From contig RSEH01000209.1 in assembly GCA_006503475.1 (NCBI GenBank), positions 1-64,000 of the forward strand: a DNA stretch of 64,000 bases, written 5' to 3'. A program made the translations under genes and the position numbers. This document shows positions 22,244-59,500 of the stretch, one piece after another (the first letter of the stretch is position 1; every line of letters starts with the position of its first letter). This DNA is from Stentor roeselii. Its lineage: Eukaryota > Ciliophora > Heterotrichea > Heterotrichida > Stentoridae. Below the pieces are notes generated by a model. That model searched no databases, was not told where the DNA came from, and saw nothing but the letters and a program-made list of their open reading frames with translations.

Positions 22244-23854
22244 TCTATTATATTTCAATAATTCAACAACTTTTGAATTGGCAGAAGAGTTATAAGTTTG
22301 AATTATATACTTTTAGGACTTGAAAATTTTTCTTTTGGGTGAGAGTATTTTTTAGAGTGAATGGGAGAGTTGATAGGTTTGATTTAATCAGAGAAGATTT
22401 TTCTTTCAGGAAGATTTGGCTATTTAGACTAGTTTCATCACTGGGGTTTAAGTTTTAGATATTGAAATAGGTTCAGGGTGTGGATTATTCAAAGTTACCC
22501 ATAGTTTAGATGATGCTGGTTATATTAAACTTAGATTAGGAGTTAACAAATTTATATATTTGGGGATTTGGGTTAAAAATAAAGATTGAGTAAAGGTCTT
22601 AAGTTTTCCAAATGTTACTCTAAGTACATCAAATTATTTAACTGTCAAATAATTTAATCGGTAGTAAACTTGTATAATTTCAATTCCTGAAAGTTTTATG
22701 ATGAAGTAGATGAAGCTTGATATTAATTTGAAGTTACTTGTTTATATTTAGTCTTAAGATTCTAGAATTGTTACTTTTTATTGAATGGAGTTCAAAATTT
22801 TACTTTTATGAACATATAAGAGTCCTCTGATGATAATTTTAAAGTCTTACCAACCAGCTAGCGACTTTCATCAGAGATTATGTTGAAGGATTAAAGATCA
22901 AAACTTTTCTTTAATATTTGAATAAATCGATTCATATATATTATATAAATTTTCTAGTTTAAGATTCTTTAATGTATATTTAAGATGATGGTATAAAGGT
23001 CTAAATCATCAAATAGTATCAATGCAGATTTTTGGATAGTAAAAAAACAACATAAATTAAATCAATTCTTGTCAAAAGATTTCCTTAAAAAGCATCGCAA
23101 GAAACTATGGCGAGGGTTTTAAATTGAATGATAGTCAAGATGGTTAATATATTCATTATAGAATTTAAAACTTATGTTTATTAAGATATATCTTAGGATA
23201 ATTTAGATTTAATTGGTATCTAGATGAAAAACAAATTTATCAAGGGGACTCTCATTTCTAACTCTCATATTAACTTCAAGGTAAACCCTAAACTAATAGC
23301 GATGTAAAATTTGATAGAATTGATGCTAAAGGCCTTTTTGCATTTTAGTTAATATATAATCATTCCAAAAAACTGACTTATATTATAGATGATAAAAGTT
23401 TAAAAGAAAAAATTTCATGATGATTATGTTTGATGGCATATGGGTTACTTGTCTAACTGATTATTCTTCAAAAAAAAGGAATTCTATTTGATGTGCCAAA
23501 TTAAAAATCCTACTTGTACTAACTAAATATTAAATCTCTAAGTTTTAAATATAATATTAACCCCTGGGAAGGTTAACTCGAATTTAATGCTTTGATGAAA
23601 TCCTTCAATAATTTCCTCAGATAATCTTTCAAAGCTATCTATTTTTAATAATATTTCATTCACAAAAGAACTCTAAAATTATAATAAAACTTAGACTTCA
23701 CTCAAGATTCCTGAAAGAAAAAATAAAATTTCAAAAGTCTCTTAATCCAAATCATTAATTTCTTAAAATAAACCTATAAATCTTTAACCAAACCTAAAAA
23801 CACAAATCATTAATTATCCAAATCATCATAATCATCTCCATAAAAATAACCAAT
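22244..23854. other. Long divergent intergenic region with a possible relic
   Basis: 1.6 kb between two divergent genes. The outer ends are strand-skewed: the plus strand is C-poor at the left (upstream of the minus gene) and G-poor at the right (upstream of the plus gene). A 46-codon open stretch at 22452-22589 (+), reading GSGCGLFKVTHSLDDAGYIK and a GIWVKN end, looks coding-like, perhaps a SPRY-like relic (weak). Otherwise nothing seen. Confidence 0.4.
23761..23854 (+). promoter_or_regulatory. G-free segment upstream of the DHHC gene
   Basis: By my count these 94 bases contain no G on the sense strand but 21 C. The same skew precedes most genes in the window. I infer promoter or 5' UTR sequence; no TATA box at a classical distance can be assigned. 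Confidence 0.5.
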
Positions 23855-24613
23855 ATGAAAATATCTCCCAAACCTCGAAAACACGGTTTAAGCCTTCCAT
23901 TAAGTGCAATCCAAATCCTCTGCTGGCTTCTCTACTTATTCGACACCTTAAACTTCACATTCCTGGTACTTCCTGAGTATTCCAAATCGGAAAAACTATT
24001 TCTTTCACTGATTTATCTGAGTTTATTTATCCTACTATTCGTCAGCTGCTTGCAGCTGACCCTAACAGACCCAACAGACCCTCTAATAAATATTTTCCAG
24101 TCTTCAGAGAACCAAGAGTAAATTCTAAACAGATTCAAAGAGTCTCTTAAAGTTCAATTCAAAAGATTCTGCCAGATCTGTCAATCTCCAGTTTCCTCAG
24201 ACAAGACAAAGCACTGCATGAAATGCAATCGATGCACACAAGCCTTTGACCACCACTGTCGTTTCGTGAATAATTGTGTGGGGAAATCGAACTACAAGGT
24301 CTTCGTTCGACTTGTTTTGAGTATTGAGCTGATCGAAATTTTTAATATTTCTGTTATTATTTTAACAGGCGTAAGAAAAAATTTCTTGATAACGCCGAAA
24401 GATGTGACTTTAATTCTCAGTTTCTTGAAAAGTTTAGCCTTTTTTGTTATGGCGAGTCATTTGACTGGTTTTCACATTTTTTTGAGTTTTCGTAAAATGA
24501 CTACTTTGGACTTCATCATGAGGAACAGAAGTAATCAAGTATCGCCGAGGGATCAGGCGATTGACACGAATTTCAAGCAAGGAGATGACCTGAATGAAAC
24601 TTCTAAGCTTTAA
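23855..24613 (+). CDS. DHHC-type protein S-acyltransferase, 247 aa
   Basis: Two exons joined by a 15-nt intron (24118-24132). Two hydrophobic spans lie at about residues 18-38 and 48-70. Then comes a cysteine-rich domain ([21 protein letters not shown]) ending [12 protein letters not shown], which is the DHHC catalytic signature, followed by two more spans. The DHHC cysteine accepts palmitate from acyl-CoA and passes it to target cysteines on membrane proteins. The protein is compact, with four spans, the family minimum. It starts at an ATG after a G-free leader. The gene converges with the MUL1-like gene, 65 bp between stops. Confidence 0.9.
24118..24132 (+). other. 15-nt intron
   Basis: GTAAATTCTAAACAG. 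It carries the TAA that would end exon 1, and removal joins NQ to EFKESL and brings the DHHC domain into frame. A at position 10. Confidence 0.92.
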
Positions 24614-24678
24614 TAAAGTTTTTAATGAATGACTTTTGATATTCTGAGGTTAACCTTTAACTATTTGCTTTAATTGTC

Positions 24679-25569
24679 CTAATAATCTATCTTAAACTGA
24701 TGAGCTATTCTTACTCTGCACATCGGGCACTTAGTGATTTTATTGTTGAAGCAAACGTCACAAAGACACACGTGCTTGCAAGGCCACAAGACAATATTCT
24801 TCTTTCTACTCAAACAGACACTACACTGCAGGTCAGCAGGGACTTCTTCAGGATTAGGCGCAATTGAAACCTTATCCTTAACCACAACAAATCCAATAAT
24901 CAAAGTAATCGATGCACAAATAGCTAAAACAACAGCAGGAGTTTTGATTTTCTTGAAATAATAATCAACAATCGCTTCTTTCGAACTAGCAACGATCTCC
25001 GCATTTAAAACTTTACTTGACTGGTCAACAGTACCAAGGCAAATGACGTGTTTTCCACTGATGATGCGAGTTGTTTTGTTTTTATAACTTCTTTCAGGCT
25101 GGAAGTCTCGTCGAAGCATTGCTGATGAGATTTGTTTGAACAGCAGGAACAAAGCTTCAAAAAAGTTATACTCAATGATTTTGTGAACGATTTCAGGCTG
25201 TTCACAACGAATTTTAAAAGAAGGACTTAGGTTAACTGTGAGATTTGATGAAGGGTCTTGAATGTCTGAGATTTCAAAGGGCTTCTAAGCAGATCTTACC
25301 ACGTGATTCGATACTCTTTTGTTAAGCACTTGTCCGGAACTTGAAAAAAAAGTCTTTTTCACTGAAGAGATTAGAGTTTCTCGCTGGTTTCTTGGAACTG
25401 TTAGTCCTCGGATCATCAGGACTTGAGATGAACTCTTTCCTGGGACTTCTGAAACTTCTATCGTCGGGATGTCCTTTATTTTCAGGTAGTTTATCACCCT
25501 GTAAGAAGTGTAAATTCCACAGACCATAGTCACACATGCTGAAAGATTTAGAAGAAGCGAGTCCGACAT
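24679..25569 (-). CDS. MUL1/MULAN-like membrane RING E3 ubiquitin ligase, 291 aa
   Basis: Two exons joined by a 15-nt intron (25285-25299). The layout is that of mitochondrial E3 ligase MUL1: an N-terminal membrane span (about 5-22), an intermembrane middle domain, a second span (about 195-215), and a C-terminal C3HC4 RING (CSVCLSRKKNIVLWPCKHVCLC...CPMCR) close to the end. The second half of the RING is in the SPL2/MUL1 style, CxHxxxCxxC. MUL1 proteins ubiquitinate or SUMOylate outer-membrane proteins of mitochondria or plastids. Location here is inference. The start ATG (MSDSLLL) is preceded by G-poor sense DNA. Confidence 0.82.
25285..25299 (-). other. 15-nt intron without the usual A at position 10
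   Basis: Minus-strand GTAAGATCTGCTTAG. Removal joins SNHV to KPFEISD and keeps the frame into the RING exon. Position 10 is G, unlike the other seven introns in the window. Confidence 0.88.
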
Positions 25570-25761
25570 TTTAAGACGATTTATAACCTTTAATTTTCCA
25601 TGATTTGAAAGATTTTCCTCGGATTTAATTATCTTCAGGTAAAAAATCTAAAAATTCCAGAAAAAACTGAAAAATCTTCCAAAACTAAAAAAAAAAATTT
25701 CAATTAATTCTTCAATAAAGTTATTTTCACAAAATAATTTCAATTGAATCACTATTCAATA

Positions 25762-28700
25762 ATGCTCCTCTTAATTCTCTTAAAAGTTCAAAGTTTAGAA
25801 TTCGGGTCAAAGGACAACATGGACCCAGGACCCATCAGCTGGCCGAAGTCGGACTGGAGCGTGAACCCGATTGAGTTGTCCTCAAATCATGCAGGTGAAA
25901 CAGTTGACGTCAAGTTCACATTTAACCCATCGACCACTTTGGCCTCAGGGATATTTCTGGTGAACTTTCCTGAAGGCTTTGTTGAAAAGTCCCGATTTGT
26001 GTCAGGCGTTTCGTTGATTTCAGGACAAGACATAACAGTAATAGTGCCTTCTGTTCAGCTACCAGATGATAAAGGAGTTTACGGCCCGGTTTCCATAATG
26101 ACAAGGGTTTCAGAGCATGGAAACATCATCGACTTGAATAAAATCTTCTCAACTATCCTGGTATCAGATAAAAAAAGATCTGCAAAGGCGAATTCCTTGA
26201 CAATCTCATTTGAAAACAGCGACTCAGCAGTAGTATCCAGTAATCAATTCCTTTATTTCTCATTTATCCTCAGTCAAGACCTGTGGAAACACGACCTGCT
26301 TCTTCTAACAATCGATGAAAAATTCTTCCTTCAAGATGAAAAATGCTGGACTCTTGTCGACTTCCTCCGAGGTTCAAACAGTTCCACGATCGAATGTTCC
26401 TTTTCCAGCGCTGAGAACTTTCTCTATATTTACGGCCTTTCAAATGACCTGCGTGTTTCAGACGTTAGCACCACCGGGTCAGTTGAAGTGAAGTTAAAAG
26501 TCGCGACTTTCACAATGCCTGATTCAGCTTACGCGGCAAGTGACTTCAATTGGAACTTATCAATTTTTCGATATGGAACCAAAACAATAGTTGAAGAGTT
26601 CACCGGGAAAGGCCCCAGCATTATCCATGGCGAGGTCTTGATCAAGTCTTGGCAGCCTGCGAATTATGTCCCTGTGAGTGAGATTGTTTCAGGAATGACC
26701 ACTTTTATGGACTTGAAGTTCAGTTTAAATCATAAAGTGCCGAGATCAGGGAAGATTGTTGTCAAGTTTAGTGGAGTCGATGTTAAAAAGACTGTTTGGA
26801 AGTCAGATGAAAGTCAGAGCACGTCTTCAGGAACTACGGAGTATTTGATGGTCAGTCCTTTTATTGGAGGAGTTTGCAGTTTGACCACGAGTCAAGTCAC
26901 GTGTAAGGACTTTGAATCGGATATTGAACCTGGGAGTCTTTCTTTCACTTGTCTTACTCGGTTCAGTGGAAGTTCCGCTAAAGTCGCTTCAATACTCACA
27001 ATGAACGAAAACGGAGATATCATTGATAGGAACTTAGAAGGTGTTACTCTAGTCTACGCCATTGCAGTTAAACAGCAACTTCTCAGTCACTTTTCAATGG
27101 TTTTCGCAAGTGACTCTTCAGGGACACTGGTTTCTTCAACTATGACGCCAGTCATCGGGTACCTTTGTTTTAAAACAGTTTCTCTTCCCAAGTCCACAGT
27201 GCTGACGTTATACCTGCCGATTAACGCAGGTGCTGAGAAGGACTTCACATTAGGCCTGGCCCAAACGACTTTAAAAGCGAAACTTTTGTCATCTTCAAGT
27301 CTTTTAACATCAGGTTACAGTTTCCTTACAAGTAGTTTGGTGAGTCTTTCAGACCCTTCGATATCTTCAAATAAACTATCGATATCCTTATCAGGTCTTT
27401 CCTCATCGACCACTGCATCAGACTACATTTACATATTTCTGACTTCAGACACTGCTGCGGCTTCTCCAGGACTGAAACTTCCTCGTTCCTCGTCAACTTA
27501 CGCAACGAAATACGAAACAATTTTAAACTTTTCAGTGAACGGGCTGATTTACAAGTCATCTCAAGTATTAACAATCACTCCTTCAAGTTTAGGAGCCTCA
27601 GCAAGTCTGTTGTGCACTGACAAGTCTCTTGCTGGAATTCCTTTAACTGTCTCTTTTTTACCTACTCTTGCATATGCCCTGGATTCAGGCTCGAAACTGA
27701 TCGTTGAAGTCAAGTTCGACTCAAGTTACTCAAATGACTTAGGAAGTGGCATATCTGGGGCATACCCAGTTTTCACTTTACTAGAAAAAGTCACATTTGA
27801 CCTCGTTCAAGACTCAGTCGCTCGGCTTCAAATGACTGGCTTGACAACGATTTTTACTACCAAGACCTACAGCTTCACTTTCCCTGTTGGAGCAGCTTCT
27901 ACTGATCGAGTCTTGGAAATTAGGCTTTTTTTCGTTACCAGTGATAGAACTGACATCGAATATGAAGTAATGAAAAATCTTGTCAACATCGCAGCGACAA
28001 CTACTGCAGACTCTTTTTCAAGTATCACTTTTAACACCGTGCCTAACAATGGAGTGACTGTTGCAGATCCTGTCATTGGAGAAAAGTTTTCATTGCAAGT
28101 CTCTCCTTTTGTATCAAGTGGAAATTACAACTCTGGGTATTTAGGAGTTATTTTACCTGCAGGGTTCTCTTTAGAAGATGTTGAAGTTTTTTTAACTTCA
28201 GATTCAGGAATTGTATCAACAGTTTTGTATTCTTTTTCATCAATAAGTGCTGAGTTCAAGTTGACAAGTGTTTTCTTTACCTTGACTAGCTCGATATCAG
28301 TTTCTTCATTCACTCCTGCGATTACTGTTAAGACCTGGAAGGCGCCTGGGTATAGTCTTTCAGCTAAAGTTGCAGTGATTATGGCCCCAAGCTCAACTGG
28401 AGCTTGTCTTGCACAAGGAGAAGAAGAAGGGGTCGATGTCGTTCCTGCTGCATTGGAAGAACCGACTTTTTCACCTGATAAGGTCCAGGCAAGAAGCGCG
28501 AGTTCTTTAATGGCTGATGTCGAACTTTCTTTTACTATCTCTGTCAAGGTCCCTGGAGGTATTTCTCTTAGTTTGAACGAGGACTGGCTTGTCACTGACT
28601 TAACCAGTTATGAGGTTGAAGGACTTTCTGGAGAGTTTCAGGTGAGTTTAAGTGGAAACAGTTATTATATTTCAGGATTCACTGAAATTAAAGCACTCAC

Positions 28701-32129: not shown

Positions 32130-33068
32130 CTAAACTGTGGAAAAGTGTTTTTCAGGATTTTCCAGCATTTCTCGGATACGGTTCTGGATCACGATTGCAC
32201 GCATTCCATCGATGAAACGATGGTCAACATTGCAGCAGATGTTGAGAACTTTCTCTACTACGACCTGCCCGTCAACGACAAGTGCCTCGTCATAAACAGA
32301 AGCGATGCAAAAAAGAGCAGGACATCGAAACAAAGGCACAAGGGGAGGGTACCCGACTTTAACATTAAGCATTCCAACACTGGTCACTACAAATGCACCG
32401 AATTCATGTCTTTTCAAATTAAACATCGGCAAGGGGATCCCCATGTTAGAAGAGATGAAACCTGAGACCTCAAAAATGATGGCAGTGATGCAGGTTGGTA
32501 GAAATTTAAAGATATTTGTTGATTTTTCTTTTAACTCTCTGTCCTTTCCACGTCTTAACGACTCAGCTTTTTTCTTGACTTCACTCGAAATGGCAGTCAA
32601 GTTTTTATTAGGAATGTCATTGATAGGAACGTAGTACAAGTCAACGCCGTCATCCATGCTAACAAGTAAAGTCCCATTAACACTCTTATGGTTGATATAA
32701 TTTCCAAAAGCAATCTTCCCATTCACATCTGGAAAGTCCTTCATCACAGTTCCAATCGCCTTAAAGACCAGATGTGTCAAGGTAATATTTTCGCCTTTTT
32801 CCTTTGAAATTTTATCTAAAAAGTTAAGCGAATTTGCAATCTTCACCTGAAAATATCCTAAAATATTAGGACGCACTGGGTCTGACCATGTCGCGATCTG
32901 TACTTTTCTCCTGATCGAATTGAACTTCGCAGCTGAAGAAGGGATCAACACCCAGCTCAAAATAAAGTAAATCGTCACAAAGAACAAGATAAAGTAAACC
33001 GGAGTCAAGTTGAACAAGAGAAAGTAAAGAATCCCGGCAAGAATACCACAAACGGCCAGTCCATTCAT
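32130..33068 (-). CDS. Membrane-anchored 2-oxoacid dehydrogenase E2-acyltransferase-like protein, 312 aa
   Basis: The last 230 or so residues follow the catalytic domain of dihydrolipoamide acyltransferases. They include an AxxxxxSxNxxDK-like helix region, a GxFxVTSVGM strand and the active-site motif DHRFIDG (His283, Asp287). E2 enzymes move acyl groups from lipoyl arms to CoA. Here no lipoyl or E1/E3-binding domain is present; instead residues 3-45 form two hydrophobic spans. It therefore cannot work as a normal E2 core subunit. It may be a membrane acyltransferase of another pathway. Its ATG overlaps the TGA of the upstream PROPPIN gene (ATGA, 4 bp). Confidence 0.8.
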   Translation of the reverse strand: MNGLAVCGILAGILYFLLFNLTPVYFILFFVTIYFILSWVLIPSSAAKFNSIRRKVQIATWSDPVRPNILGYFQVKIANSLNFLDKISKEKGENITLTHLVFKAIGTVMKDFPDVNGKIAFGNYINHKSVNGTLLVSMDDGVDLYYVPINDIPNKNLTAISSEVKKKAESLRRGKDRELKEKSTNIFKFLPTCITAIIFEVSGFISSNMGIPLPMFNLKRHEFGAFVVTSVGMLNVKVGYPPLVPLFRCPALFCIASVYDEALVVDGQVVVEKVLNICCNVDHRFIDGMRAIVIQNRIREMLENPEKHFSTV

Positions 33069-34090
33069 TTTTTAATATTACAAAAAGAAGTCAACTTCCC
33101 TGCTTGAATCACTCGACTTTCAAAAGTCTCGAAAGAAAGAATCAGAAAATCTGAGGAGTGACTCACGGCAAGGATTGAATCATTTTTACTGCTCAGGGTT
33201 GCAAGAAATCTTGAGGAAAAACCTGTTTTAAACGAAAATATGCTTCGACTTGCCTCGAATCGGTCTTTTAAAGAATCTGAAAAAAAGTAAGTCGCTGCTG
33301 ATGACAGGGTCTTTGAGACACTCCAGGTTGATGGTGATGAAGAGTGTTGCAGTGAAAAAATGTGAAGACTTCCTGATGAACTTGTACAGACCAAGTAGTT
33401 GCTGTCGAAGGAAAAACGAAGGGAATAAGTTTGAGCCGGGTAAAGACCTCGTTTGAATGTGAAAAGTTTTTCACCTTCAGGAAGCGAAAAAACCCGAATT
33501 ATTGTACCTTTAGTAGAGGAAGTAGCAAGAAGATTCCCTGAATAAGAAACTCCAACAACAGCTAAACTGGTACTATGAGCTTCAATCACTCCTCTCATCT
33601 CCATCGAAAAGCAATCACAGACCTGCACAGAGCCTTTTTCCAAACTTGCAGGAAACACCAAAAAGCAATTTTCAGAAGAAGGTGACAAATCCAAAACCTT
33701 ATTCAAATTCTCAACAGTGCGAAAAACATGCTGAGTTTTCATGGTCGTAGTATTATAAACATAAATCGCATCAATAATAGCAACGACGATTCTTAATCGA
33801 TTCATTCTGACAGCTAAAATCGTTTCAGGAAAAGAGGTCTCACAAATAGGCGCTCTTTCAGAAATATTCCAAATAGTCAGTCGTTTCGGAGAAAAAGCTG
33901 GATGTTCCCCCGACCCGACCAGAAGGAGCAGTTGAGTCATTTCGTAGATTTCGACAATGCGGAAACCTGCTCTTTCGTCTTGGTTCAGAAGTTCAAAAGG
34001 CTCGATTTTAAAGACTGAGAAACCTGAAGCTGAACCTGTTGTTAGCAAAGTTGAGTCCTGGTTGAAGCTGACATGTTGCAAGTTTTCCAT
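33065..34090 (-). CDS. PROPPIN (Atg18/WIPI-like) beta-propeller protein, 341 aa
   Basis: WD-like repeats start with a FNQDST.L..G...GF.VF.I strand, the usual WIPI opening. At residues 212-215 is FKRG, in the place of the L/FRRG phosphoinositide-binding motif, followed by the typical YSLRFSFDSNYL repeat. PROPPINs bind PI3P and PI(3,5)P2 and act in autophagy and vacuole or endosome membrane traffic. The first Arg of the motif is Lys, which keeps the charge. Family length is about 340-450, so this is a short member. Its start codon is only 9 bp from that of the divergent golgin gene. It ends in TGA overlapping the next gene. Confidence 0.85.
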   Translation of the reverse strand: MENLQHVSFNQDSTLLTTGSASGFSVFKIEPFELLNQDERAGFRIVEIYEMTQLLLLVGSGEHPAFSPKRLTIWNISERAPICETSFPETILAVRMNRLRIVVAIIDAIYVYNTTTMKTQHVFRTVENLNKVLDLSPSSENCFLVFPASLEKGSVQVCDCFSMEMRGVIEAHSTSLAVVGVSYSGNLLATSSTKGTIIRVFSLPEGEKLFTFKRGLYPAQTYSLRFSFDSNYLVCTSSSGSLHIFSLQHSSSPSTWSVSKTLSSAATYFFSDSLKDRFEASRSIFSFKTGFSSRFLATLSSKNDSILAVSHSSDFLILSFETFESRVIQAGKLTSFCNIKK

Positions 34091-34099
34091 TATGAATAA

Positions 34100-35971: not shown

Positions 35972-36051
35972 TAACTTTCCAATAAAAACCTGATAAAATA
36001 TATCATTCTTCACCTTCCATAAATCTAACTTTTAAATTCACTTCCATTATA

Positions 36052-37038: not shown

Positions 37039-37485
37039 AGGAATTAAATTAGTTATTCGATAATAGTTGTTGCAGGATATCTATTAGAATTGTAAGGTTA
37101 TTAATATGCTTAATTAAATTTCATAAATTATTTCACTGATTTGTGAAAATATTGGAAATATGAGATATTTGTTTTATGTATATTATGCAAAAGGTATTTT
37201 AAGAAATATCCCAAAGATTTCGCTTTGATATAAATTTGTTCTTTTCAAAGAATAATATCATGTGAATCCCTGAACTACTATCATTCATTATAATAAAACT
37301 GTAACTAAATTACAATGATCTATCCTTATAAATAATATCCTTCACTGATTAATAACAAACTCAATCAATTGAAGTAATCCAATAAAATTTAATTCATAAA
37401 ACAATCTTTAATAAATCAACCAACATATTTACTCCTTCAACATTTCCTTAAACAGTCATAATCCAATTCCTCAACACAAATATAA
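37039..37485 (+). promoter_or_regulatory. Intergenic DNA between patatin copies, G-poor toward the second ATG
   Basis: No gene seen. The left part is plain AT-rich. From about 37280 to 37485 the sense strand is nearly free of G and rich in A, T and C, ending ATATAAATG. I infer the promoter or leader of the second patatin gene. Confidence 0.45.
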
Positions 37486-41159: not shown

Positions 41160-41343
41160 ATTAGATTACTTATTAACAATTTTCGTTATTTCAACAAATA
41201 TTTCAAATAATCGACTCCATCTTAATAAAATAACAATTTCAAGTACTACTGATTTTCTGTTTATTTAAAAAAATCCCTTTTTCATCTCTTCGTTTTCCCG
41301 ATTTATTCACTAATATAAAACCATTAATTAAATCCCTTTATAA
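41160..41343 (+). promoter_or_regulatory. G-poor leader of the TauE/SafE gene
   Basis: The sense strand is almost free of G up to the start, which reads TTTATAAATG. Same pattern as before other genes. No other motif found. Confidence 0.4.
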
Positions 41344-42959: not shown

Positions 42960-43167
42960 AAAATTTGAATAATTCTTAACGATCCCATCAACCTAGAAAA
43001 AACTTCAAAAATAGTGATAACAACTGATTTCCCCTTCTAAAATTCAACCATTCCAAATAAAATCTTCCTACAAAGCCTTTCCATCTAAAACTATCATATT
43101 CTAAAATATTCTTTAAAAACATTCATTCTAAATCCAACAATTCAATAATAAATTCTTCTTTTTCAGT
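42960..43167 (+). promoter_or_regulatory. G-poor leader of the GOST-like gene
   Basis: About 200 bases with very few G on the sense strand, ending in a pyrimidine tract and CAGTATG. The CAG just before the ATG could look like an acceptor site, but no donor at 15-16 nt is present. Confidence 0.4.
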
Positions 43168-46482: not shown

Positions 46483-47196
46483 TCATTGGGAAAAAGAACC
46501 CGTTAGTCGTTTATCTACTCTTAAAAGTTCTTCAAGTCGATTGATTTCAGAGTTTTTCTCATGAATCCTTTTATCAGCGACTTCTTCTGCCTTCAATCTA
46601 TTAGCTTGTTCATTTAAAATCTTATTACAAAGACAAGAAGCGAGACTTTTCCAGTCATTTTCATCTTTCTGAAGGACCTGCTCGACTGTTTCACTGACTT
46701 GAAGGTGATAAGCACGGGTCTTGGGAAATCTTTTCAATGGAAAAGGTTTTAATGAGTCTGAAAGTTCTTTTGCACTTTTCGAGTACTTGTGAATAAAACC
46801 GCTGATTGATAAAATCTCAGATTTCAGCTGCTTCTCGTAACTTGTTGATAGTTTATTGTCTACAATAGATAAAGTCATTTCAGCGAGAAGGGTCTTCATT
46901 GCTTTGTTTGATTTGCTTAATTCTTCGATTTTTTTCTCTTTTCCTGCGATTTCTTCTGCTGATTTTTTCATTAAAGGGCTGCAGGAAAAGTCGGTCCTTG
47001 ATTTTGTTTTGAACTTTTCTTGTTCTAGACCTGTTTGAAGGGTTTTTAACATTTTTGACTCTTTTTGAGAGTATTTCAGAAGGGTTTGTTCCTTGTGGTC
47101 TTCTAGGCATAGCAGCTGGGATAGAATGTCTTGAATTGTTGATTGTAATTTTTCTGGTGGTGAAATTTTGGGTTTTGAAGATTTTCGTAGCTTCAT
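46483..47196 (-). CDS. Coiled-coil protein of unknown function, 237 aa
   Basis: Basic N-terminus (MKLRKSSKPKISPPEK), then Lys/Glu/Leu-rich helices with heptad spacing over most of the length, notably 25-130 and 165-230. No domain recognised and no signal peptide. It ends in TGA 16 bp before the start of the next minus-strand gene. Upstream sense DNA is strongly G-poor. Both genes may belong to a cytoskeletal complex, which is only a guess from their composition and neighbourhood. Confidence 0.65.
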   Translation of the reverse strand: MKLRKSSKPKISPPEKLQSTIQDILSQLLCLEDHKEQTLLKYSQKESKMLKTLQTGLEQEKFKTKSRTDFSCSPLMKKSAEEIAGKEKKIEELSKSNKAMKTLLAEMTLSIVDNKLSTSYEKQLKSEILSISGFIHKYSKSAKELSDSLKPFPLKRFPKTRAYHLQVSETVEQVLQKDENDWKSLASCLCNKILNEQANRLKAEEVADKRIHEKNSEINRLEELLRVDKRLTGSFSQ

Positions 47197-48890
47197 TTTT
47201 AGGATGATTTGGATAATGAGAGATTTTCTTGATTTAGTTGAAAATGGTGTTTTGGGCTTGGAAGTTGAATTTTTAGAATAGGATTAATAAAGTTTTAGAA
47301 ATGGTTTTGGTTGAAGGTCTAGGGTTTATCATTTTTTAGGGTTTCTGTGATAATTGTAGTTTGATTAGGTGAATTGATTTAAAATAAAATAATTATGAGT
47401 GTTTTAATACACTTAATTCTTGTTAGTTGAATCAATTTAAACCATAATTAAAGGATCATTCTAAGTTTTTTATATATAAACTATGAAAAAACTTTAAGAT
47501 TTACACAAAGATAAAGAGATTGTTTATTTATCTGAAATCTTAAAAAAAATTAAATAGTATTTTAGGATTTACTCTGAGTATGAAGTCCATCAAATATTTA
47601 TGTCAAATATTCTAGTTGTTATTGGTTCATTTTCATGATGCTCGGAATATTTCTATAGTTACTGGTGGTTTTATTAAGTTGAAAACTCGTGCCATAATTT
47701 TTTATTTTAAGGCACATCAACACCTCGGAGTTCCAATTTTTACAGAAAATAATCTCTAAAAGGGTATTTTTCTATTATCTTTCTGTTAACCTGCAGAATT
47801 CAATGATTTTTTATTTCTCGTTTTTATTATGAATAATTTCTGAAAATAATGCTTTGGTCCCGATAGTAACTCAATAAAGTCTGGTGAAAACTTTGTTTTT
47901 TTTTAAGTTTATGCTACTTTTTACGTTTACTACGGTGAATGTGAAGATCTTTTACATAGAAAAAAATGTGCTGATTCATTTAAAATCTTTAATAACTGTC
48001 TATAGTTTAGTCAAGTTAGTCTTTAATGTTATTCTTCCCTTAAATATAATTAAATTTTGATTTGAAAATCTTTACCTTCTTGATAAAGAAGCTGAATTTC
48101 ATTTAAGGTTAGAGGAGTCTTCCACTTACTCTCAATTAATTAATTAACTTAAATTTTACATCTTATTAATTAATACCTTAAAAATAATTGGAAAATTCTT
48201 AAATATTTAGTTTAAATTTACTCCTTGAGCCAGTTTTAATTAGGTTTTCAAAACGAATCAAGTAAATGGCCAGCGAATAAACAGGATTTAATTTTTATGA
48301 ATCCGAAATCTTAACTAGGGTTAGTTTCGACTCATGAAACGTAAAAATATTTAAACTAGATTTGAAATTTTAGCTTAAACTCTTGGTTATCATCTCTTGA
48401 ATAAATGCCAGGGACTAATTAAAAAATTAGAACTTTTTTGTTTTTTACTTTTTTGATCGGTTTAAGATTGTTTAAAACTTTTTATGTGTTTTGGGTTAAT
48501 TTAAATTTACTGAAGTTTATGAACAGAGGAAAAACTCTAAGATGAAAATCAGAATAATTAATATGAATATTAGGAAGATTAAGAGTGAAATTCAATAGAT
48601 CAGGCCTGAACGAGAAATTTTTAAGCAAAAGATTTTTATAGAACAATTAGAATCTAAAGGGAATTTCGAGCTACTCTAATTAAGACCTTCAGGAATGCTT
48701 ATAATCTCATACCCAATTAAATCCATCGAAATCGAATGCATGAGAAAAGTTCTTATCTTTATAAGCGAAACAAGAAAATAACTTTTCTATCAGGTTTTTC
48801 TTCAAATCTATTATCATAGGAATTCATTATAATTTGATAGCAATTTCAAAACTTGGAAATATTAATTTCTTTTGCGATTTTGAAGGCTAC
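47197..48890. other. Gene-poor AT-rich stretch
   Basis: The first 250 or so bases are C-poor on the plus strand, the expected leader of the minus-strand gene at 47196. Beyond that I find no intact frame, repeat or RNA gene. Short coding-like snippets with stops occur, too weak to call. Confidence 0.45.
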
Positions 48891-49335
48891 CTTGAATCCA
48901 CTAGCTTCTCAAATGATGGGAAAATGGTTTCTTTTGGGTTATCCAAACAAATCTAAGATTATTCTTTATTTAAGACAATAAAGAATATTCATATATTCAA
49001 TATCAAAACTAGGTTCTCAACTTGTTTCAGTAATTTCGGAAGACATTTGGCTTCAGGTTCTCTAGAGTTAATAATTTCTCTATGGAAACTTGAAGAAATA
49101 TTCGAATATTACAAATTACTTGGCCATTAATCTGCAGTTAGGTATATGTGTTTTTCATTTGATGATGAATTACTAGCTTTTGGTTCATTTAATAGGATAA
49201 TAAGGGTTTGAAGTGTGCAAGAGAGACTAATAAAATTTCATATAGATGAAAACGTATATTAAATTAGTTTTTTAACTAATCCAAATATAATTGATTCAGG
49301 ATCATCTGATAGCACAATTATTATAATTAACAAAG
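48891..49335 (+). pseudogene. WD40-repeat relic with stops in one continuous frame
   Basis: A single plus-strand frame shows successive WD cores: FSNDGKMVSFG, FSNFGRHLASGS ... ISLWKL, GH-stop-SAVRYMCFSFDDELLAFGS ... IIRV-stop, and NPNIIDSGSSDS. Four stops interrupt the frame (three TAA, one TGA). The TGA stands where the repeat ends in Trp, and one TAA follows the conserved GH. No frameshift is needed across about 445 bp, unlike the WD pseudogene at 1620-2533. Reading on in this frame to about 49841 gives further mixed sequence with seven more stops, but the family link is lost. Confidence 0.55.
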
Positions 49336-51636
49336 CATTTAATATTTTAATGGATTTGTGCTTCAAATATAAATCCAAGTAATCTGAGTTGTTTTCATGA
49401 TCATTCAAGAAAATGATATAAAAGAGTAGTGAGAAAAATAGGGAAGATTGAATGAATATGATAAAAAAGTTTTTAATACTATTCAATAACTGGAGGATTA
49501 AAATAATGTCATATCTAGTCCTTTGAATATTTTGTTGTGTAGCTATTCCTCTGACCATCGAGAGCGAATTAAGCATCAAATGGTATATAGGAATTAATTT
49601 TCAAATTTCTAAGTATGCTCCAAACAGACAGTATTGCATCAACGATATTCCAAGTATTGAAGAAATATTTTTGTATTTAGATCTATAAAATTTCCTAAAT
49701 AAATATCAAACAATAAGTTCTCCAGAATGGGAAAAAATTTGTTTATTATATTTTTTAAAGACTAAAAAATATTGTGAAGCAAATTTACCTTATCCAGAAT
49801 ACTTATGTATCTTAATTACTCTACTAATAATCTTAAATTGATGTTTTAGTAGTGATCTCATTTTTAAGTGAAATAATATTAATTTTTAGCAAAAAATCTT
49901 AATAATCCATTTAAATTATTTCTTAAAAATAACTATTCCCAGCTTTCAAAGTTAAAAGAAATCATGAACTCAAAAAATAATCAGTTTACTAATATCTGCT
50001 TTTCAATTAAATAACTACCTTCGATAATAAACACATTAAATTTAACAAATACTTTCAAAGACATTTTTAAAATGTCTATTAACAGTCCAGTTACCAGAAA
50101 TTAAGCCTTGAAAAAAAAAACGAATTCTTAGTAATACACAATTCTTTCGTCCATTAAAAGAATAAATAGAAATATTTTAAATTCATGCTTAGTCTATTAA
50201 GATGCCTATTCGTAATTTTTTGAAACTTTAATCTAAAACAACTAGAATGTTAAATTTTCCAATAGCGTCCCTTAATCTAACTGAAAATCTAGATTTCAAA
50301 ATTTTTAAAAGAAATTCAACTCTTTTAAACACTTGATACAGTTTTCCATAGACTCATTAATGAGAAATTAAGTTAGTTGAATAATAATCTAGAGAGTATG
50401 AGGATATGTAATATATAGAATAAGTATATAAATTGACCTTCAAAGCCATTCAGGGTATATGGAAATATCTGCATATCTTCAATAAAATTATTTCGTTAGT
50501 ATATCAAAAGAATAGTAAATTATTGAATGATTAGGAATTCAAAATAATAGTAAATCAATTCATTATTAAGAATTTAAAAGAAAAGGATCTTTCTGTGCTG
50601 AATAAGCATCAAAATTATAGTAATTGTATCAATATTTCTAGAGACATATCAAAAGCTTAACAGGTATCGTATAAGTGCTATTATTTTGTTGATTTATTTA
50701 GATTTAAAGAAGAATTTCTGTTTCAGGTAATTGTTATGTGTTTATTCAGTAAAATATACAAGAGGTGGAAAATTCGATGACACTTAAAGAATAATTTTGA
50801 TGAAATGAAAGAGAAACAGTATTTTTATTAGCATGGCCACAGATAATGAAAAAGCTATTAGCATACTGTTTCAATTTTAAAGCATTTGTTGACTGAGAAT
50901 TAAATTATTATACTGGGTGAAATTATTATTTAACCAGGAAAATTTTATAAATATTTAACGAATAATCATGGTTTGTTATCAGATATCAAACTTTTTAAGA
51001 AGCTTCAGTTTTTTAATTTTTTTTTATTTGGATTTGATATTTCTATATTTCAAAAGATTTACGATTGCATGGCTTATAGCTGATATTAAAAGTAAAATTT
51101 GAGATGATTTTTTAGATAGATTGAGATAATTTTTAATATTTAATGAGAATAAAAATCTACAACAAGGTGTTAGATTATTATCCTAAATATCAGATAGGTA
51201 GTATTTATTACTGTAGAAATTCAATTTAGAGCACGAAAACTATAATTTACCTTATCGTGAAAGTATTTATTCAAGAATATAACTAATCTAAACATTAAGA
51301 TAATTTATTTCATTTCTAAATATAACTTTAACCCAAATATCTACTTATATAATTTATGAAAATTATAATCATTCTATAATTAAGTCAAACAGATTATTTC
51401 TAATAATTATAACATCAATACTAAGATAATATTTTTGTAAGAATCATAATAAAAATACTAACCTTACATAAAATCCTCATATCTTAAAGCTCTATAAAAA
51501 CCTTTCAATAAAATAAAAATATTAAAATATCCAAAACAAAATCTTAAACTCTTCTCAACCAAAACTATAAAATTCCAGATCCACTTCAAAATCCATTCAA
51601 GAGCTCATCACATCTAAATTCTGTTGACCCATATAA
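49336..51636. other. Gene-poor AT-rich stretch ending in a G-poor leader
   Basis: No intact gene. Possible further remnant of the WD relic up to about 49841. Low-complexity AT-rich DNA follows. The last 156 bases (51481-51636) have about 6 G against about 35 C on the plus strand, the leader pattern seen before other genes. Confidence 0.45.
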
Positions 51637-52194
51637 ATGTTTAAAAAATTCGTCAACTGGTTCCAGTCAATCTTCTGGAACCAAAACCTTCAACTATCAG
51701 TTCTCGGTCTTCAAAATGCAGGAAAATCCACTTTTATAAACGTTCTGACAGGTAATGAGTTCAGCGAAGATACAATCCCGACAATAGGTTTCAACGAAAG
51801 ACACATAAACAAAGGTCGAGTTCATTTTCAGCTTTGGGATTTAGGAGGTGACCAAAAGTTCCGAAATATGTGGGAAAGGTTTTCTAGAGACGTTGATTGC
51901 ATCATCTTTGTTGTAGATTCTGCCGACTTTAGGCAACTTGACAACTCAAAAGCTGAACTGCATCGATTATTAGCCTGGCCTTCTTTGAAAAATACTACTT
52001 TGCTTGTCCTTGGGAATAAAAACGATTTGGAAGGCGCTTTAAGTGAAGAAGAATTAATCAATGCACTTGACCTGCAGTCGATTAAAGGAAGAGATGTGGC
52101 TTGTTACTCGGTAAGCTCGAAGAGACAGACTAATATTGATACGGTTTTAAACTATCTCAGTAGTTTGAGGAATAAAAGAAAAGGTAAAGCTTAG
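51637..52194 (+). CDS. ARL8-like small GTPase, 185 aa
   Basis: Arf-family GTPase with P-loop GLQNAGKS (24-31), switch I IPTIGFN, switch II WDLGGDQ, GNKNDL and the closing CYSVSSK (SAK-like) motif. ARL8 features are an N-terminus without Gly2 but with an amphipathic aromatic helix (MFKKFVNWFQSIFW), SEDTIPTIGFN, and FRxMWER after switch II. ARL8 moves lysosomes by linking them to kinesin and recruits HOPS for fusion. Oddity: the catalytic Gln of WDxGGQ is Asp here (GGDQ), which should slow intrinsic hydrolysis. The ATG follows CATATAA. Confidence 0.88.
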   Translation: MFKKFVNWFQSIFWNQNLQLSVLGLQNAGKSTFINVLTGNEFSEDTIPTIGFNERHINKGRVHFQLWDLGGDQKFRNMWERFSRDVDCIIFVVDSADFRQLDNSKAELHRLLAWPSLKNTTLLVLGNKNDLEGALSEEELINALDLQSIKGRDVACYSVSSKRQTNIDTVLNYLSSLRNKRKGKA

Positions 52195-52668
52195 TGGAAA
52201 TTTTAGTTAAAATGAAGAAATATTGGTTTATTTGGTTGGAATGGTTAAGATGGAGTTTATAGATAAGTTCATTAAAGTGCTTTGGGTTTAAGGAATTTCG
52301 TAGTTTTTACTGTAGTTTTTATTCACATTTTCTCAATTTTGATATAAAGAATCTGATAATACATTTTTATACTTATCTCACTACCAAACCTCAACTTTAC
52401 TTATTCTAAAATCCCTAAAATCCAATAAGAAACCAATTTAAATCATAAAACTCTCTAAAATCCCAAATCCTCCAAAAATCTTAACACCCTAAAAATCCAA
52501 GCTCTTCAAAACCAAAAAACCATTCCATTTTCCTGAATTGCAAAAAAAATCCTGAATTTTCTGAACCATTTGAAAACCTATCTAATTTTCCATAAATTAT
52601 ATAAAATCAGCCCTTTTATCCCTGAGCCATTTAAAACTTCAAAATTTTTTCTAACTTTCTAATAATAA
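52195..52668 (+). promoter_or_regulatory. Intergenic DNA, second half G-poor leader of the PH-kinase gene
   Basis: No gene. From about 52380 the plus strand consists mostly of A, C and T with CTAAAA/CCAAA-like runs and few G, ending AATAATAAATG. I infer promoter or leader. Confidence 0.45.
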
Positions 52669-54534
52669 ATGGGATCTTGTCCAATCAGTTCAGGTAAAAG
52701 GTCAACTCGTAGACAAGTAAGCACGAAAGTTCAAACCGAAAGAAGTACTCATCATCTAGTGAACACAAAAGAAATGGAATTATTGCAACATTTATTTAAA
52801 GACTTAGCCCTTCGCAACTCCGCTTTTGACTACCTAGAAAAAAGCACTTTTCTTAACTTCTGTAAACTTCCAGTATCTTCTATTCAGGGCTTCCTCGGCG
52901 AGAGACTCTTCGATATGCTTGCAGAATTCGAGGAATTTACAATAAAACTTGAAAAATTCACGTATATCTTAGAAGTCATGTGCAGAGCAAATGAAAGTGA
53001 CTCAATTTCAGTCATTTTTCAGCTGATTGACTTGGAAAACTCGAAACTTTTAACAGTGAATTCATTTAAGATGTTGGTAGTTCTTAAATAGTGCTACAGT
53101 TTTTTTTCCTTCTTGAAAAATCACTCTTTTGACCAGCCTCCAGAAGGATTTAGAAAAAATTTGAATTTTAATGAAGAACTTTTTAATAATTTTTCAACGA
53201 ATTTGAAAAAAATCGATGAAAGTCTTGTTTTAGTTGAATTGGATCAGGTTATTGAGGCTCTTTTTAAAAGATACTCTAATGGGGCACATGGAGTGACTTT
53301 AGAGAAGTTTTATCTGGTGGTTAAAGAATTTCCTTGTATTTTTGAGCAGATTGGTAAATGTTTCACTCATGATTTATGGTCAACCAGTTCTGTTCTAGGT
53401 GTAAGGAATGCTAATGTAGGAGGGCAAAGGTCAAGAAGAGATCTAGAGACAGTCTTTATATTGAAAGACCACTCTTTAATCGAGTACTATGCTGAAATAA
53501 AAGGATCCTTGTTAATCCTCATGTCCCAAGGCAAGTCTTCTAAAATCGAGCAAGTTCTTTTCCTTGAAAACTGTTACATCAAAGAAAATTCCCGCTTTTC
53601 AGTCTGGATCCTGAGCATTTTCCATTCCACCCAATACGACCCTAAAGTAATCCTTGCCTTTCGATCAGAAGAAAAACAAGTGAAATGGTTAGAAACCCTA
53701 TCAAAAGCAGGAAACATGCGAAAACTAAAAGACTATTATCGAATCGAAAACAAAATCTCACATGGAAAGTTCTCTGAAGTCTTCATAGCAATCAACAAAA
53801 CTTCAAAGGAAAAATTCGTAGCGAAATTAATCCGCAAGAGAAAATTAGACTACGTCGAGCGAGAGATGATGCGAAACGAGGTACACATCTTATCTTTGCT
53901 GAATCACGAAAACATCATCAAGCTTTTCGACTACTTCCACAGTCAAAAGTCCTTAATTTTGATTTTAGAAAATGTTGAAGGTGAAGAGTTGGTAAAAGTG
54001 ATAAAGTCTTCAAGTCTCTCAGAAATGCAAGTCAAGTCAATAATCTTCCAATTATTAAAAGCTGTTGATTTCATGCATGGTTTTGGAATCTTACATCGAG
54101 ATATCAAACCTGAGAATATTATTTTAAAGAAAAAGACTGTAGATGATTTTTCTTTAAAACTCGTTGATTTTGGCTTCGCTTCTTTTGAACTACAGAATTC
54201 TTTGAACATGATTCATTGCGGGACTTTCGGGTACTCTGCACCTGAAATATTGAAAAAAGAAGCTTATGGCAGATCTGTCGACATGTGGTCCATCGGGATA
54301 GTGGCTTATTCAACGATTACAGGAAAACTTCCGATTTACGATTCAGATCATCGAGTAGTGTACAACAAGACAATCAACTTGGAAATCGACTATAAAAGCG
54401 AAGCTTGGTCGAAAGTGTCTCCAGAAGGCTTGGATTTCGTTCAAAAGCTGCTGAAAAAAGACCCTAAACAACGACTTGACAGTTCTTCTGCTCTTTCTCA
54501 TCCTTGGTTTATCAATTTAAATAAAACCTTTTAG
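52669..54534 (+). CDS. Protein kinase with EF-hand-like N-terminus and PH domain, 616 aa
   Basis: Two exons joined by a 15-nt intron (53077-53091). The N-terminus MGSCPIS could be myristoylated on Gly2 and palmitoylated on Cys4. Residues about 35-230 are helical and EF-hand-like without clear calcium loops. A PH domain lies at about 253-343 (ends with a Trp helix, KQVKWLETL). The CAMK-type kinase domain covers 353-615: VAK Lys381, HRDIKPEN (471), DFG (495), GTFGYSAPE and the DMWSIG helix. All catalytic residues are present, but the glycine loop is degenerate (ISHGKFSEV). It is probably membrane-bound and responds to lipid. The stop is 3 bp from the stop of the convergent gene. Confidence 0.87.
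53077..53091 (+). other. 15-nt intron
   Basis: GTAGTTCTTAAATAG, phase 0, carries an in-frame TAG. Removal joins ...SFKML to CYSFFSFLKNH. A at position 10. Confidence 0.9.
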
Positions 54535-54537
54535 TCT

Positions 54538-54906: not shown

Positions 54907-55029
54907 GAAGTTAATTTTAACTATTCTTTATGTTTAGGTTTTGAAAGTGGAAATGACTGAAAGGACTGAAGGACTAAAGGACTTTTCCTAAGATGATAAA
55001 TATTTAATTATCTTGAAGAATGTTTAAAA

Positions 55030-55336
55030 GGTTATCAATTGAAACGTTATGTAAAAGAATTTATAAAAGGTTATCAATTGAAACTTTATGTAAAAGAATT
55101 TATAAAAGGTTATCAATTGAAACTTTATGTAAAAGAATTTATAAAAGGTTATCAATTGAAACGTTATGTAAAAGAATTTATAAAAGGTTATCAATTGAAA
55201 CTTTATGTAAAAGAATTTATAAAAGGTTATCAATTGAAACTTTATGTAAAAGAATTTATAAAAGGTTATCAATTGAAAGGTTATGTAAAAGAATTTATAA
55301 AAGGTTATCAATTGAAACGTTAAGTAAAAGAATTTG
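55030..55336 (+). repeat. 39-bp minisatellite, eight copies, in a divergent promoter region
   Basis: Units start at 55030, 55069, 55108, 55147, 55186, 55225, 55264 and 55303 with a strict 39-bp period. Each opens GGTTATCAATTGAAA and contains ATGTAAAAGAATTTATAAAA. Copies differ mainly at two bases after GAAA: cg, ct, ct, cg, ct, ct, gg, cg, which suggests a three-unit (117-bp) higher-order step. As 39 is divisible by three, several frames on both strands stay open through it; I regard those as accidental. Confidence 0.92.
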
Positions 55337-55376
55337 GAAATAGAGGAATAAAGGTTATCAAATTAATAACTTATGT

Positions 55377-56033: not shown

Positions 56034-56061
56034 AATGATGGTTTTCCTATAATAGACTCTA

Positions 56062-56457
56062 TTAAATATCGCAGTTTTCATCTTCTGAGTCTTCAGGATC
56101 GTTTTTAACTTCTTTGATTTCATCGTCTTGAACGATTTTAACACTTGAACCGACTCCTGAATTGCAAATATGCACGTCGCTCAGGACTTTATCCATTTCT
56201 GGATCGTTTTTTATCGCCATTTGGATGAAATTAGGACTTATTCGCTTTTTGCGAAAGTCAATTGCGGCTTGTCCTGACATTTCAAGCATTTCGCAGGTTA
56301 GGTACTCGAGGACTGCCGCTAAGTACACCCCTGCTTTTTTACTCACCCTTTCAGCGATTTTGGCCTTTTTGAGGTATCTCTGCACTCGCGATGCGGGGAA
56401 AAGAAAGTCTTGGCTGGTGGGAATGGTTTTAGAGAAGTTGGTGCAGTCTCTGTTCAT
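56062..56457 (-). CDS. Divergent histone H2A variant, 131 aa
   Basis: Residues 19-100 follow the H2A fold: FPASRVQRYLKK, AGVYLAAVLEYLTCEMLE, and RISPNFIQMAIKND. The acidic-patch glutamates of helix 2 (LEYLTxExxE) are kept, but the C-terminal patch reads NDPEMDK instead of NDEELNK. The N-tail is short and lacks the usual SGRGK sequence. The C-tail is strongly acidic (DDE, EDSEDE) with no SQ motif of H2A.X and no H2A.Z signature. It probably replaces H2A in special nucleosomes. Ciliates, with two nuclei, have several H2A types; which nucleus this serves cannot be seen. Upstream sense DNA is G-poor. Confidence 0.88.
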   Translation of the reverse strand: MNRDCTNFSKTIPTSQDFLFPASRVQRYLKKAKIAERVSKKAGVYLAAVLEYLTCEMLEMSGQAAIDFRKKRISPNFIQMAIKNDPEMDKVLSDVHICNSGVGSSVKIVQDDEIKEVKNDPEDSEDENCDI

Positions 56458-56805
56458 TATAGGGGGACTTGGTAAAGGGGATGAAGGATTAAATATGAAA
56501 GGTTTATGGGGATTGTTTAGGTTGTAAAGGGGTTTTTTTAGGAGTTTTGGGGGGTTATAGTGAAGATTTTTAGTGGATTTTAGAGATTTAGGGTTTGGGT
56601 TTTTTGGATTATAAGTTAGAAATTGATTGATTTAGTTGAATTGATCGTTTATTTCAGCAGGGTTTGTATTTTGAGAAGTGGCTTGTTTAGGATTATCATT
56701 TGTTAGAATTTTAGGTGGTAGGTTTAAAGGGATTTGGAATTACTAGACTTAGGTTCTGAGATATAAGTATAGATATCTTTAGGTTTAGGAGTTTGATGTT
56801 AGAGA

Positions 56806-56891
56806 GGCGGGAGGCCGTCTAAAGAGACAGCACAATAAATCTCTATTGCTTTGTGCACCTGTTATAGCAGGCCAAAGGCCCAACAAGCGCC
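56806..56891 (+). ncRNA. Candidate structured RNA (hairpin cluster), uncertain
   Basis: In otherwise AT-rich DNA, 86 bases hold several short perfect hairpins in a row: GTCT-AAAG-AGAC, GCACAA...TTTGTGC enclosing CAATA/TATTG, CCTG-TTATAG-CAGG and GGCC-AAA-GGCC. GGCG at the start can pair with CGCC at the end. There is no TTCGA-type T-loop, so it is not a tRNA. The strand is unknown. It could be a small RNA gene or just the 3' flank of the minus-strand gene at 56923. Confidence 0.2.
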
Positions 56892-56922
56892 ATTTATATC
56901 CTATCAATTTACCTATTTTTCG

Positions 56923-57816: not shown

Positions 57817-57822
57817 TTATAT

Positions 57823-58695: not shown

Positions 58696-58708
58696 AATCT
58701 AAGATTAA

Positions 58709-59314
58709 CTAAGTCGTATGCATCTCTGCATTCTTTTCTTGCGTCTTGGGCAAGTACGAAGGGACTTCCATGGACTCCCGATTTAAGTCATCAAATAAAT
58801 CAGCTTCATCAAGTTCATCAAGTTCTCTTTCAAGTTCTCCTTCATCCACTTCACAAGCGTAATTTCTGCTCATTATTTCATTGATTTCTTCAGTGTCCAT
58901 CATCATATCAGCCATATCGTCCATCATCTTCTCGACGTCGCCGACTTTTAATTGTTTCAACTGCTGGGTCTGGACCTTGTGGGCTTCTTTCATCGCTGTG
59001 ACCGTGTTGATCGTGTCTTGAATGCTTTGCGCTGTGAAGGTCATCTGCTCGATGTTGAATTGAGTCCCCATTAGACCTTCAAGTTGACTTGCGTACATCT
59101 TTCGACGCTTTAGAAGTTGAACTGCTCGTTGTTTGTTCATCTGTTGAGTACTTCCTCGAGAGTTTTTTATCGCCTCTCGTAGTTGGACCAGTTCTCGGTC
59201 GCATTCGGAGACTTTCTCTTTTAAGGACTGTACTCGGGTGTCCATACTTGCGTTCGCTTCTTCTAAGGTTGGACCTTTCGCTGGTTCTGGTTTTTTTTTT
59301 CCGAAGAATCTCAT
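58709..59314 (-). CDS. Vps60/CHMP5 ESCRT-III subunit, 201 aa
   Basis: Begins MRFFGKKKPEPAKGPTLEEA, the CHMP5 style of start, with the Snf7 helical core after it: the basic helix (KQRAVQLLKRRKMYASQL), MEQ-like FNIEQMTFTAQSI, then the DMADMMMDTEEINEIMSR segment, and an acidic tail (ELERELDELDEADL). Length 201 fits the family (about 220). ESCRT-III subunits polymerise on membranes during multivesicular body formation; Vps60 binds the Vta1/LIP5 cofactor of Vps4 through its tail. ATG follows AAAAA, and sense DNA upstream is strongly G-poor. Confidence 0.92.
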   Translation of the reverse strand: MRFFGKKKPEPAKGPTLEEANASMDTRVQSLKEKVSECDRELVQLREAIKNSRGSTQQMNKQRAVQLLKRRKMYASQLEGLMGTQFNIEQMTFTAQSIQDTINTVTAMKEAHKVQTQQLKQLKVGDVEKMMDDMADMMMDTEEINEIMSRNYACEVDEGELERELDELDEADLFDDLNRESMEVPSYLPKTQEKNAEMHTT

Positions 59315-59500
59315 TTTTTATTTGGGGGTTGATGAGTAGAGGATTTTGGGAAAGTTGATTGGGTTTGGATTTTTTGGGGTTTTTGGTATTCTGATCAGGT
59401 CTGAAAAATGAAATTTTTGGAGGTTATTAGGGATGTCTAAGTTTTTAGAGGCTTTAGAGTTTAGGTTAGGAGATCTTTTGGTATTTGGATTTTTTTATTA
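59315..59500 (-). promoter_or_regulatory. G-poor leader of the Vps60 gene
   Basis: On the plus strand C is nearly absent: bases 59341-59400 hold 2 C and about 21 G, so the sense strand of the minus gene has almost no G. Clearest minus-strand example of the leader skew. Confidence 0.5.

Follow-up and report, generated by a model that had tools for sequence, protein, structure and literature searches.

G-poor, C-rich DNA upstream of start codons in a Stentor contig, a strand asymmetry that enters the genes and recurs beside stop codons

Introduction

Why should the sense strand just upstream of a gene lose most of its guanine and keep its cytosine? The question is raised by the first 64,000 bases (hereafter the window, bases 1-64000) of the 87-kb contig RSEH01000209.1 of Stentor roeselii (an assembly of 44.4 Mb in 522 contigs), where an earlier reading made from the letters alone (the sequence-only reading) had noticed this composition before most genes and had proposed that it marks promoters, or is a mutational footprint of transcription starts. 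We found a strand asymmetry that continues across the ATG, depends on the length of the neighbouring spacer and involves a loss of G after every base; it also recurs, with opposite sign on the sense strand, beside stop codons. The sequence-only reading had noted neither the bias beside stops, nor its passage into synonymous sites, nor the dependence on spacer length. Strand asymmetry at the DNA level beside genes with a promoter-sized spacer may be caused by biased substitution or repair linked to transcription initiation, an explanation whose chances we put at about even; replication initiated in the spacers is its main rival.

G-poor, C-rich DNA upstream of start codons

The base counts quoted by the sequence-only reading are exact (0 G and 21 C at 23761-23854; 6 G and 35 C at 51481-51636), and C exceeds G on the sense strand upstream of all 11 starts that it named (spacer up to 250 nt), with binomial p between 4e-17 and 4e-5 for 10 of the 11 and a borderline value (p 0.056) for the start at 41344. 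Before the minus-strand start at 22243, C exceeds G over the upstream spacer, but the last 50 nt are flat, with 6 C and 6 G. The G-poor segments at starts in the window are as follows.

23598-23876, plus strand: G-poor, C-rich segment before a DHHC-like gene (named by eye; ATG 23855), maximum-scoring segment of score 26.2, last 100 nt C21 G0
51276-51636, plus strand: G-poor domain of 361 nt before an Arl8-like gene (ATG 51637)
59313-59576, minus strand: G-poor segment before a Snf7-family (Vps60-like) gene (ATG 59314), last 100 nt C32 G3
56456-56807, minus strand: G-poor segment before a histone-fold gene (ATG 56457), score 41.1, the highest in the window, last 100 nt C38 G1
47117-47409, minus strand: G-poor segment before the gene with ATG 47196, reaching 80 nt into the gene
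52356-52670, plus strand: G-poor segment before a kinase-like gene (named by eye; ATG 52669)
37265-37485, plus strand: G-poor domain of 221 nt before the second patatin-like gene (ATG 37486), which is similar to the first (ATG 36052)
35962-36053, plus strand: G-poor segment occupying the whole 80-nt spacer before the first patatin-like gene (ATG 36052)
42968-43165, plus strand: G-poor segment before the gene with ATG 43168
41165-41345, plus strand: G-poor segment before a TauE-like gene (ATG 41344)
22271-22402, minus strand: G-poor segment before the gene with ATG 22243, absent in the last 50 nt
25640-25785, plus strand: G-poor segment before the gene with ATG 25762, a start missing from the earlier list

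Genes were predicted with a gene finder built for this analysis (codon bigrams, strand-symmetric background, 15-nt introns). A first gene set, taken from the window and 25 stretches of 10 kb (314 kb) at a score above 15, held 149 genes; the final set, with the adjoining 10 kb added (324 kb in all) and the score cut at 10, holds 156 genes and 130 spacers. Leaving out the 28 of the 156 genes that have no upstream neighbour within the fetched stretch gives 128 genes with a known upstream neighbour. The start at 23855 was set by hand, the gene finder having begun this gene too late. Some open reading frames (ORFs) run for up to 3098 codons with no TAA, TAG or TGA, which fits the standard code, and the introns in the gene models are 15-nt GT..AG introns with A at position 10 in a fraction of.92 (29 introns with an in-frame stop). 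Stentor coeruleus is described as having the standard code, 93% 15-nt introns and a branch adenosine mostly at position 10 (PMC9505925); since the host shares the code, the intron length and the A at position 10, we read it as a Stentor-like heterotrich. Its genome is compact, with median spacers between predicted genes of 89 nt (tandem), 29 nt (convergent) and 241 nt (divergent).

In this sample the attribution to most genes proved too wide: the C share of C+G in the last 100 nt reaches at least 0.7 in 45 of the 128 genes with a known upstream neighbour, in 13 of the 28 predicted genes of the window, and in 31 of the 62 genes with an upstream spacer of at least 160 nt (324 kb). Outside the window, C exceeds G in 33 and falls below it in 10 of the 45 genes with a spacer at least that long (p 6e-4). 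The bin with the highest skew, defined as (C-G)/(C+G), is -50 to -75, where C is.200 and G is.084 (80 genes); farther off both are about.15, and in the sample average the bias is gone by about -250. Among the 70 genes with 100 nt of upstream spacer, the mean per-gene skew is +0.36, and its distribution is broad, bimodal and overdispersed 5.2-fold. We refer to strong and weak genes, classes that are defined by the skew itself; therefore only the analysis of unselected genes was used for judging a step at the ATG. In strong genes G falls to about 4% upstream. The signal is strand-aware and AT-richness does not explain it, as had been claimed: G+C in the strong genes is.28-.29 at -20 to -100 and.28 at -400 to -1000. 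Net loss of GC, or simple deamination, was rejected as a cause because G+C is unchanged in these genes.

That the pattern is an artefact of gene finding, or chance, is highly improbable, even though the starts were predicted by a home-made gene finder and the weak class includes genes at locus edges. G-poor segments above threshold number 173 in the real DNA and 14 in one set of dinucleotide shuffles, 59 of the 173 are in 5' leader position, and the skew is significant outside the window. Starts fixed by homology were also available from a family of paralogs beginning MGCC or MGCx, whose N-terminus is likely lipid-modified, judging from its residues. The family has 63 matches in the assembly, some of which are pieces of one gene, and 20 of the 63 were fetched, each aligning from the first Met of the query. 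Seven of the 20 are strong; pooled, the 20 do not fit a simple story (C>G in 10, C<G in 8, p 0.38). In 9 of the 20, coding-like sequence comes to about 75 nt or less from the ATG, and these 9 include no strong gene, so that all 7 strong genes fall among the remaining 11 with upstream room, in a split made after the data were seen.

Another pair of paralogs, the Arl8-like genes, are 71% alike over 510 nt of coding sequence, and their upstream regions, which are unalignable, hold C27 G5 and C29 G3 per 100; the true start of the second copy is uncertain, since the codon aligned to the Met of the window gene is CTC. Hidden RNA genes were rejected as a source of the segments, with no Rfam match in the 12 of the 25 ten-kb loci that were searched. 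The window itself has one match to large-subunit (LSU) rRNA. At 4262-5559 on the minus strand, the 3' portion of a eukaryotic LSU rRNA (model positions 1891-3399) stands alone among protein genes, with no small-subunit match in the window.

Continuity across the ATG and dependence on spacer length

Among unselected genes with an upstream spacer of at least 400 nt (39 genes), there is no step in skew at the ATG: the skew is +0.43 at -100 to -60 and +0.35 at -30 to -5, and at fourfold sites it is +0.36 in codons 0-33, +0.30 in codons 33-66 and +0.29 in codons 66-100, fading to +0.15 up to codon 150 (35 genes) and then to -0.16 (26 genes). With spacers of at least 160 nt (62 genes), +0.35 at -30 to -5 is followed by +0.25, +0.26 and +0.21 at fourfold sites to codon 100, values that leave room for a small drop at the ATG. 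Genes beside spacers shorter than 40 nt are flat at fourfold sites, both at the 5' end (-0.01, 32 genes) and at the 3' end (-0.02, 60 genes); in codons 33-100 the skew is +0.05 (tandem) and -0.03 (divergent) for these spacers, and +0.20 and +0.26 for those of at least 160 nt. The absence of a step at the ATG, together with the dependence on long spacers, argues against a leader signal and for an asymmetry of the DNA.

The composition of the leaders was also considered as a product of selection for 5' leaders that are unstructured and AUG-free, rich in A and C and free of G, and would suit scanning ribosomes. Such leaders are predicted to be almost unfolded (minimum energy 0 in 6 of 10 leader stretches), 19 of the 59 segments in leader position end within 2 nt of the predicted ATG, and in strong genes G is about.04 upstream and.08-.12 at fourfold sites of the first 35 codons, a comparison biased by the fact that the class was chosen on the leader; these observations would fit a leader code. 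However, genes unselected by skew have no clear step at the ATG, and a mirror asymmetry is found beside stops. Structure avoidance beyond composition was not seen, with 9 of the 10 stretches within 1.1 SD of shuffles with equal dinucleotides and the tenth (25662-25761) folding better than most. In strong leaders G is down to 0.30-0.54 of baseline whichever base precedes it, and ATG is only slightly rarer than expected (11 observed, 16.1 expected), on which grounds avoidance of upstream ATGs was rejected as the cause. In addition, genes with divergent spacers down to 9 nt manage without such a leader, for example at this site:

34091-34099, no strand: 9-nt spacer between two divergent ATGs, without space for a G-poor leader

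At another locus (L025), the ATGs of a divergent pair are 56 nt apart, with C16 G0 before one and C0 G16 before the other; a short divergent spacer is shared by both partners, which are therefore necessarily mirror images. Overall, selection on the leaders seems to us an unlikely cause. Of the two possibilities that the sequence-only reading had offered, promoters or a mutational footprint, a footprint in the DNA is favoured over a leader code, because the skew enters fourfold sites without a step and G is lost after every base; the idea that it marks starts holds only in part, as stops are skewed too.

A directional promoter or nucleosome-positioning code, in which the composition itself would be read by chromatin or the pre-initiation complex, appears quite improbable. 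In its favour, the 5' edge of the domain is fairly sharp, with G falling from.117 to.054 between adjacent 20-nt bins (held-out positions, 26 strong genes), and domain length rises with spacer length to about 350 nt, a relation that is partly built in because a domain cannot exceed its own spacer. Against such a code, synonymous coding sites and the stop sides are affected too, and the leaders share no common motif or TATA position: none of the five TATA-like or AT words examined held a fixed position, and no word was prominent in most leaders.

The same asymmetry beside stop codons

The proposal of the sequence-only reading implied no equal asymmetry around stops, and this held only in part: beside stops the sense strand is C-poor, which is the opposite sign, at similar strength near the codon but over a shorter stretch. 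The asymmetry is therefore not a mark of starts alone. In the 25 genes whose downstream spacer is at least 400 nt long, fourfold sites of the last 33 codons have a skew of -0.37 and the 30 nt directly past the stop one of -0.36; the values are near zero both inward of these codons and beyond +60. The domain at starts is the wider of the two. Two such segments lie in the window.

37008-37209, minus strand: mirror segment at the stop at 37038, minus strand G-poor, sense strand C-poor around and after the stop
52159-52323, minus strand: mirror segment at the stop at 52194, minus strand G-poor, sense strand C-poor around and after the stop

Described by the strand that enters the gene from the spacer, the two sides are alike, A/C-rich and G/T-poor. 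In the 24 tandem spacers of at least 120 nt, this strand has A.390, C.198, G.086 and T.326 on the start side (C>G in 19, C<G in 4) and A.386, C.200, G.096 and T.318 on the stop side (C>G in 20, C<G in 3, p 4e-4). At divergent starts C exceeds G in 28 cases and falls below it in 9; at convergent stops the counts are 11 and 6 (p 0.3, not significant), from few spacers that partly hold coding-like stretches. On a fixed strand, the skew passes from the left to the right edge of the spacer from -0.44 to +0.35 (tandem) and from -0.31 to +0.45 (divergent); in 8 convergent spacers it goes from -0.19 to +0.23, with no order in between.

This symmetry about the spacer is what brings in replication, the main rival, according to which long spacers would be bidirectional origins and the outward-leading strand would turn A/C-rich. 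In tandem spacers of at least 120 nt the outward strand has raised A and C whether it faces a start or a stop, the sign change across tandem and divergent spacers is independent of gene orientation, a long spacer is needed, and fourfold sites beside convergent stops are affected. The yeast leading strand is reported to be enriched in A and C outward from the centre (Marsolier-Kergoat, 2012; PMC3459929), which matches the outward sign seen here; unlike those skews, the present ones are of short range, a few hundred nt and not kilobases, and over 53 spacers the strength on one side does not follow that on the other (Spearman 0.02; 29 spacers positive on both, 28.7 expected). A single spacer-centred process, attractive at first, is weakened by these uncorrelated flanks, although in tandem spacers alone the flanks do correlate (Spearman 0.41, p 0.046, n=24). 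The greater width of the start domain and the weakness of the convergent spacers also speak against replication, which we consider rather unlikely. The fuller form of this idea, that nearly every long spacer is an initiation site in an amitotic, highly polyploid macronucleus and marks the leading strand with an A/C signature for a few hundred bases into both flanking genes, would be distinctly unlikely.

A proposed origin in substitution or repair at transcription initiation

We infer that transcription is the driver of the asymmetry, and mutation or repair, not selection, its agent. A substitution or repair asymmetry is suggested because the process is blind to the ATG, has no fixed motif, leaves G+C constant and exchanges G/T for A/C on the entering strand. 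The start-side domain extends from roughly -200 to +300 nt relative to the ATG, and in it the sense strand is depleted in G (and somewhat in T) and enriched in C (and somewhat in A). The stop-side domain, of opposite sense-strand sign, takes in about 33 codons before the stop and 60 nt past it; the proposed initiation-linked bias would thus have a narrower opposite counterpart at 3' ends. In tight pairs, the downstream gene may use the transcription of its neighbour.

Several observations weigh against a bias tied to transcription initiation. Its sign is opposite to that of plain cytosine deamination on an exposed non-template strand. Short-spacer genes are flat even in codons 33-100, which means either that these genes lack their own initiation site or that transcription by itself is insufficient. 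Convergent genes show the 3' effect at fourfold sites (-0.44 in 12 genes, -0.67 in 6 genes); convergent spacers are expected to be free of promoters, and the stop side is therefore probably not only the promoter of a neighbour. Nor does a simple story fit the comparison of tandem-stop and convergent-stop flanks, which do not differ (p 0.21-0.87). In plants the skew is stronger in highly expressed genes; tubulin genes are presumably of that kind, and 2 of the 8 with an identified start are strong; 14 stretches were fetched of 23 tubulin matches, and 6 of the 14 were dropped because a short motif found no start.

As an observation apart, three contigs have a tubulin match right at an end (C305:6-566, C364:3-353 and C350:199-840).

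Comparison with known systems

Rather than a new signal, the asymmetry looks like a strong case of a skew already described in fungi and plants. In unicellular fungi a 5' C and 3' G skew, fourfold sites included, has been described, and both a mutation pressure that depends on the phase of transcription and an adaptive effect on elongation speed have been proposed (PMC3315797). As there, the 5' end and promoter are C-biased, the 3' end and untranslated region (UTR) are G-biased, fourfold sites are affected and the change within the gene is gradual; the present case differs in coming from a ciliate, in its bimodal per-gene skew, in the G content of about 4% in strong genes and in the lack of skew beside spacers shorter than 40 nt. 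For plants and fungi, Fujimori et al. (2005; PMC555766) reported an excess of C over G where transcription begins, highest 50-100 nt upstream of the translation start, as here. Table 1 of that paper lists no significant C excess in 11 protists, including Tetrahymena, over the 100 nt downstream of transcript 5' ends, whereas the mean of +0.36 found here applies to another region, upstream of the ATG.

In ciliates with gene-sized chromosomes, subtelomeric strand skews that are alike on both strands have been described in Halteria (PMC7858049) and Nyctotherus (PMC2633312); the Halteria paper considers whether the cause is linked to transcription or independent of it. Those skews resemble the present ones in flanking genes with similar composition on forward and reverse strands, but they lie at chromosome ends, and that of Nyctotherus is a purine skew, whereas the spacers studied here are inside contigs. 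Our literature search, whose coverage did not extend to the Stentor genome paper, found no earlier report of such skew in a heterotrich. If the pattern is genome-wide, a ciliate would join the 5' C and 3' G skew of fungi and plants, with an amplitude visible by eye in single genes. The coexistence of skewed and unskewed genes, and of long and short spacers, in one compact genome offers built-in controls for telling apart transcription, replication and leader selection as causes of skews at gene ends.

Gene spacing and other observations

The two divergent ATGs that are 9 nt apart, at 34090 (minus strand) and 34100 (plus strand), belong to a WIPI/PROPPIN-like gene and a golgin/GRIP-like coiled-coil gene (both named by eye); at this distance, either the promoters are inside the genes or the leaders are almost absent. 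At the other extreme, a 4.4-kb spacer (47197-51636) of about 26% GC contains no predicted gene, and both of its flanks are strongly G-poor on the outward strand. Convergent genes across the sample are often 3-30 nt apart, so their 3' UTRs must be tiny or overlap the neighbour. On the minus strand, the tandem ORFs 32130-33068 and 33065-34090 overlap by 4 nt (in the gene finder's model the downstream one begins later, at 32744), and with the 6-nt distance at 57816/57823 this amounts to operon-like spacing in a eukaryote. Finally, 55020-55343 holds a short in-frame tandem repeat, open in several frames, that encodes repeated KRLSIETLCKRIY-like units.

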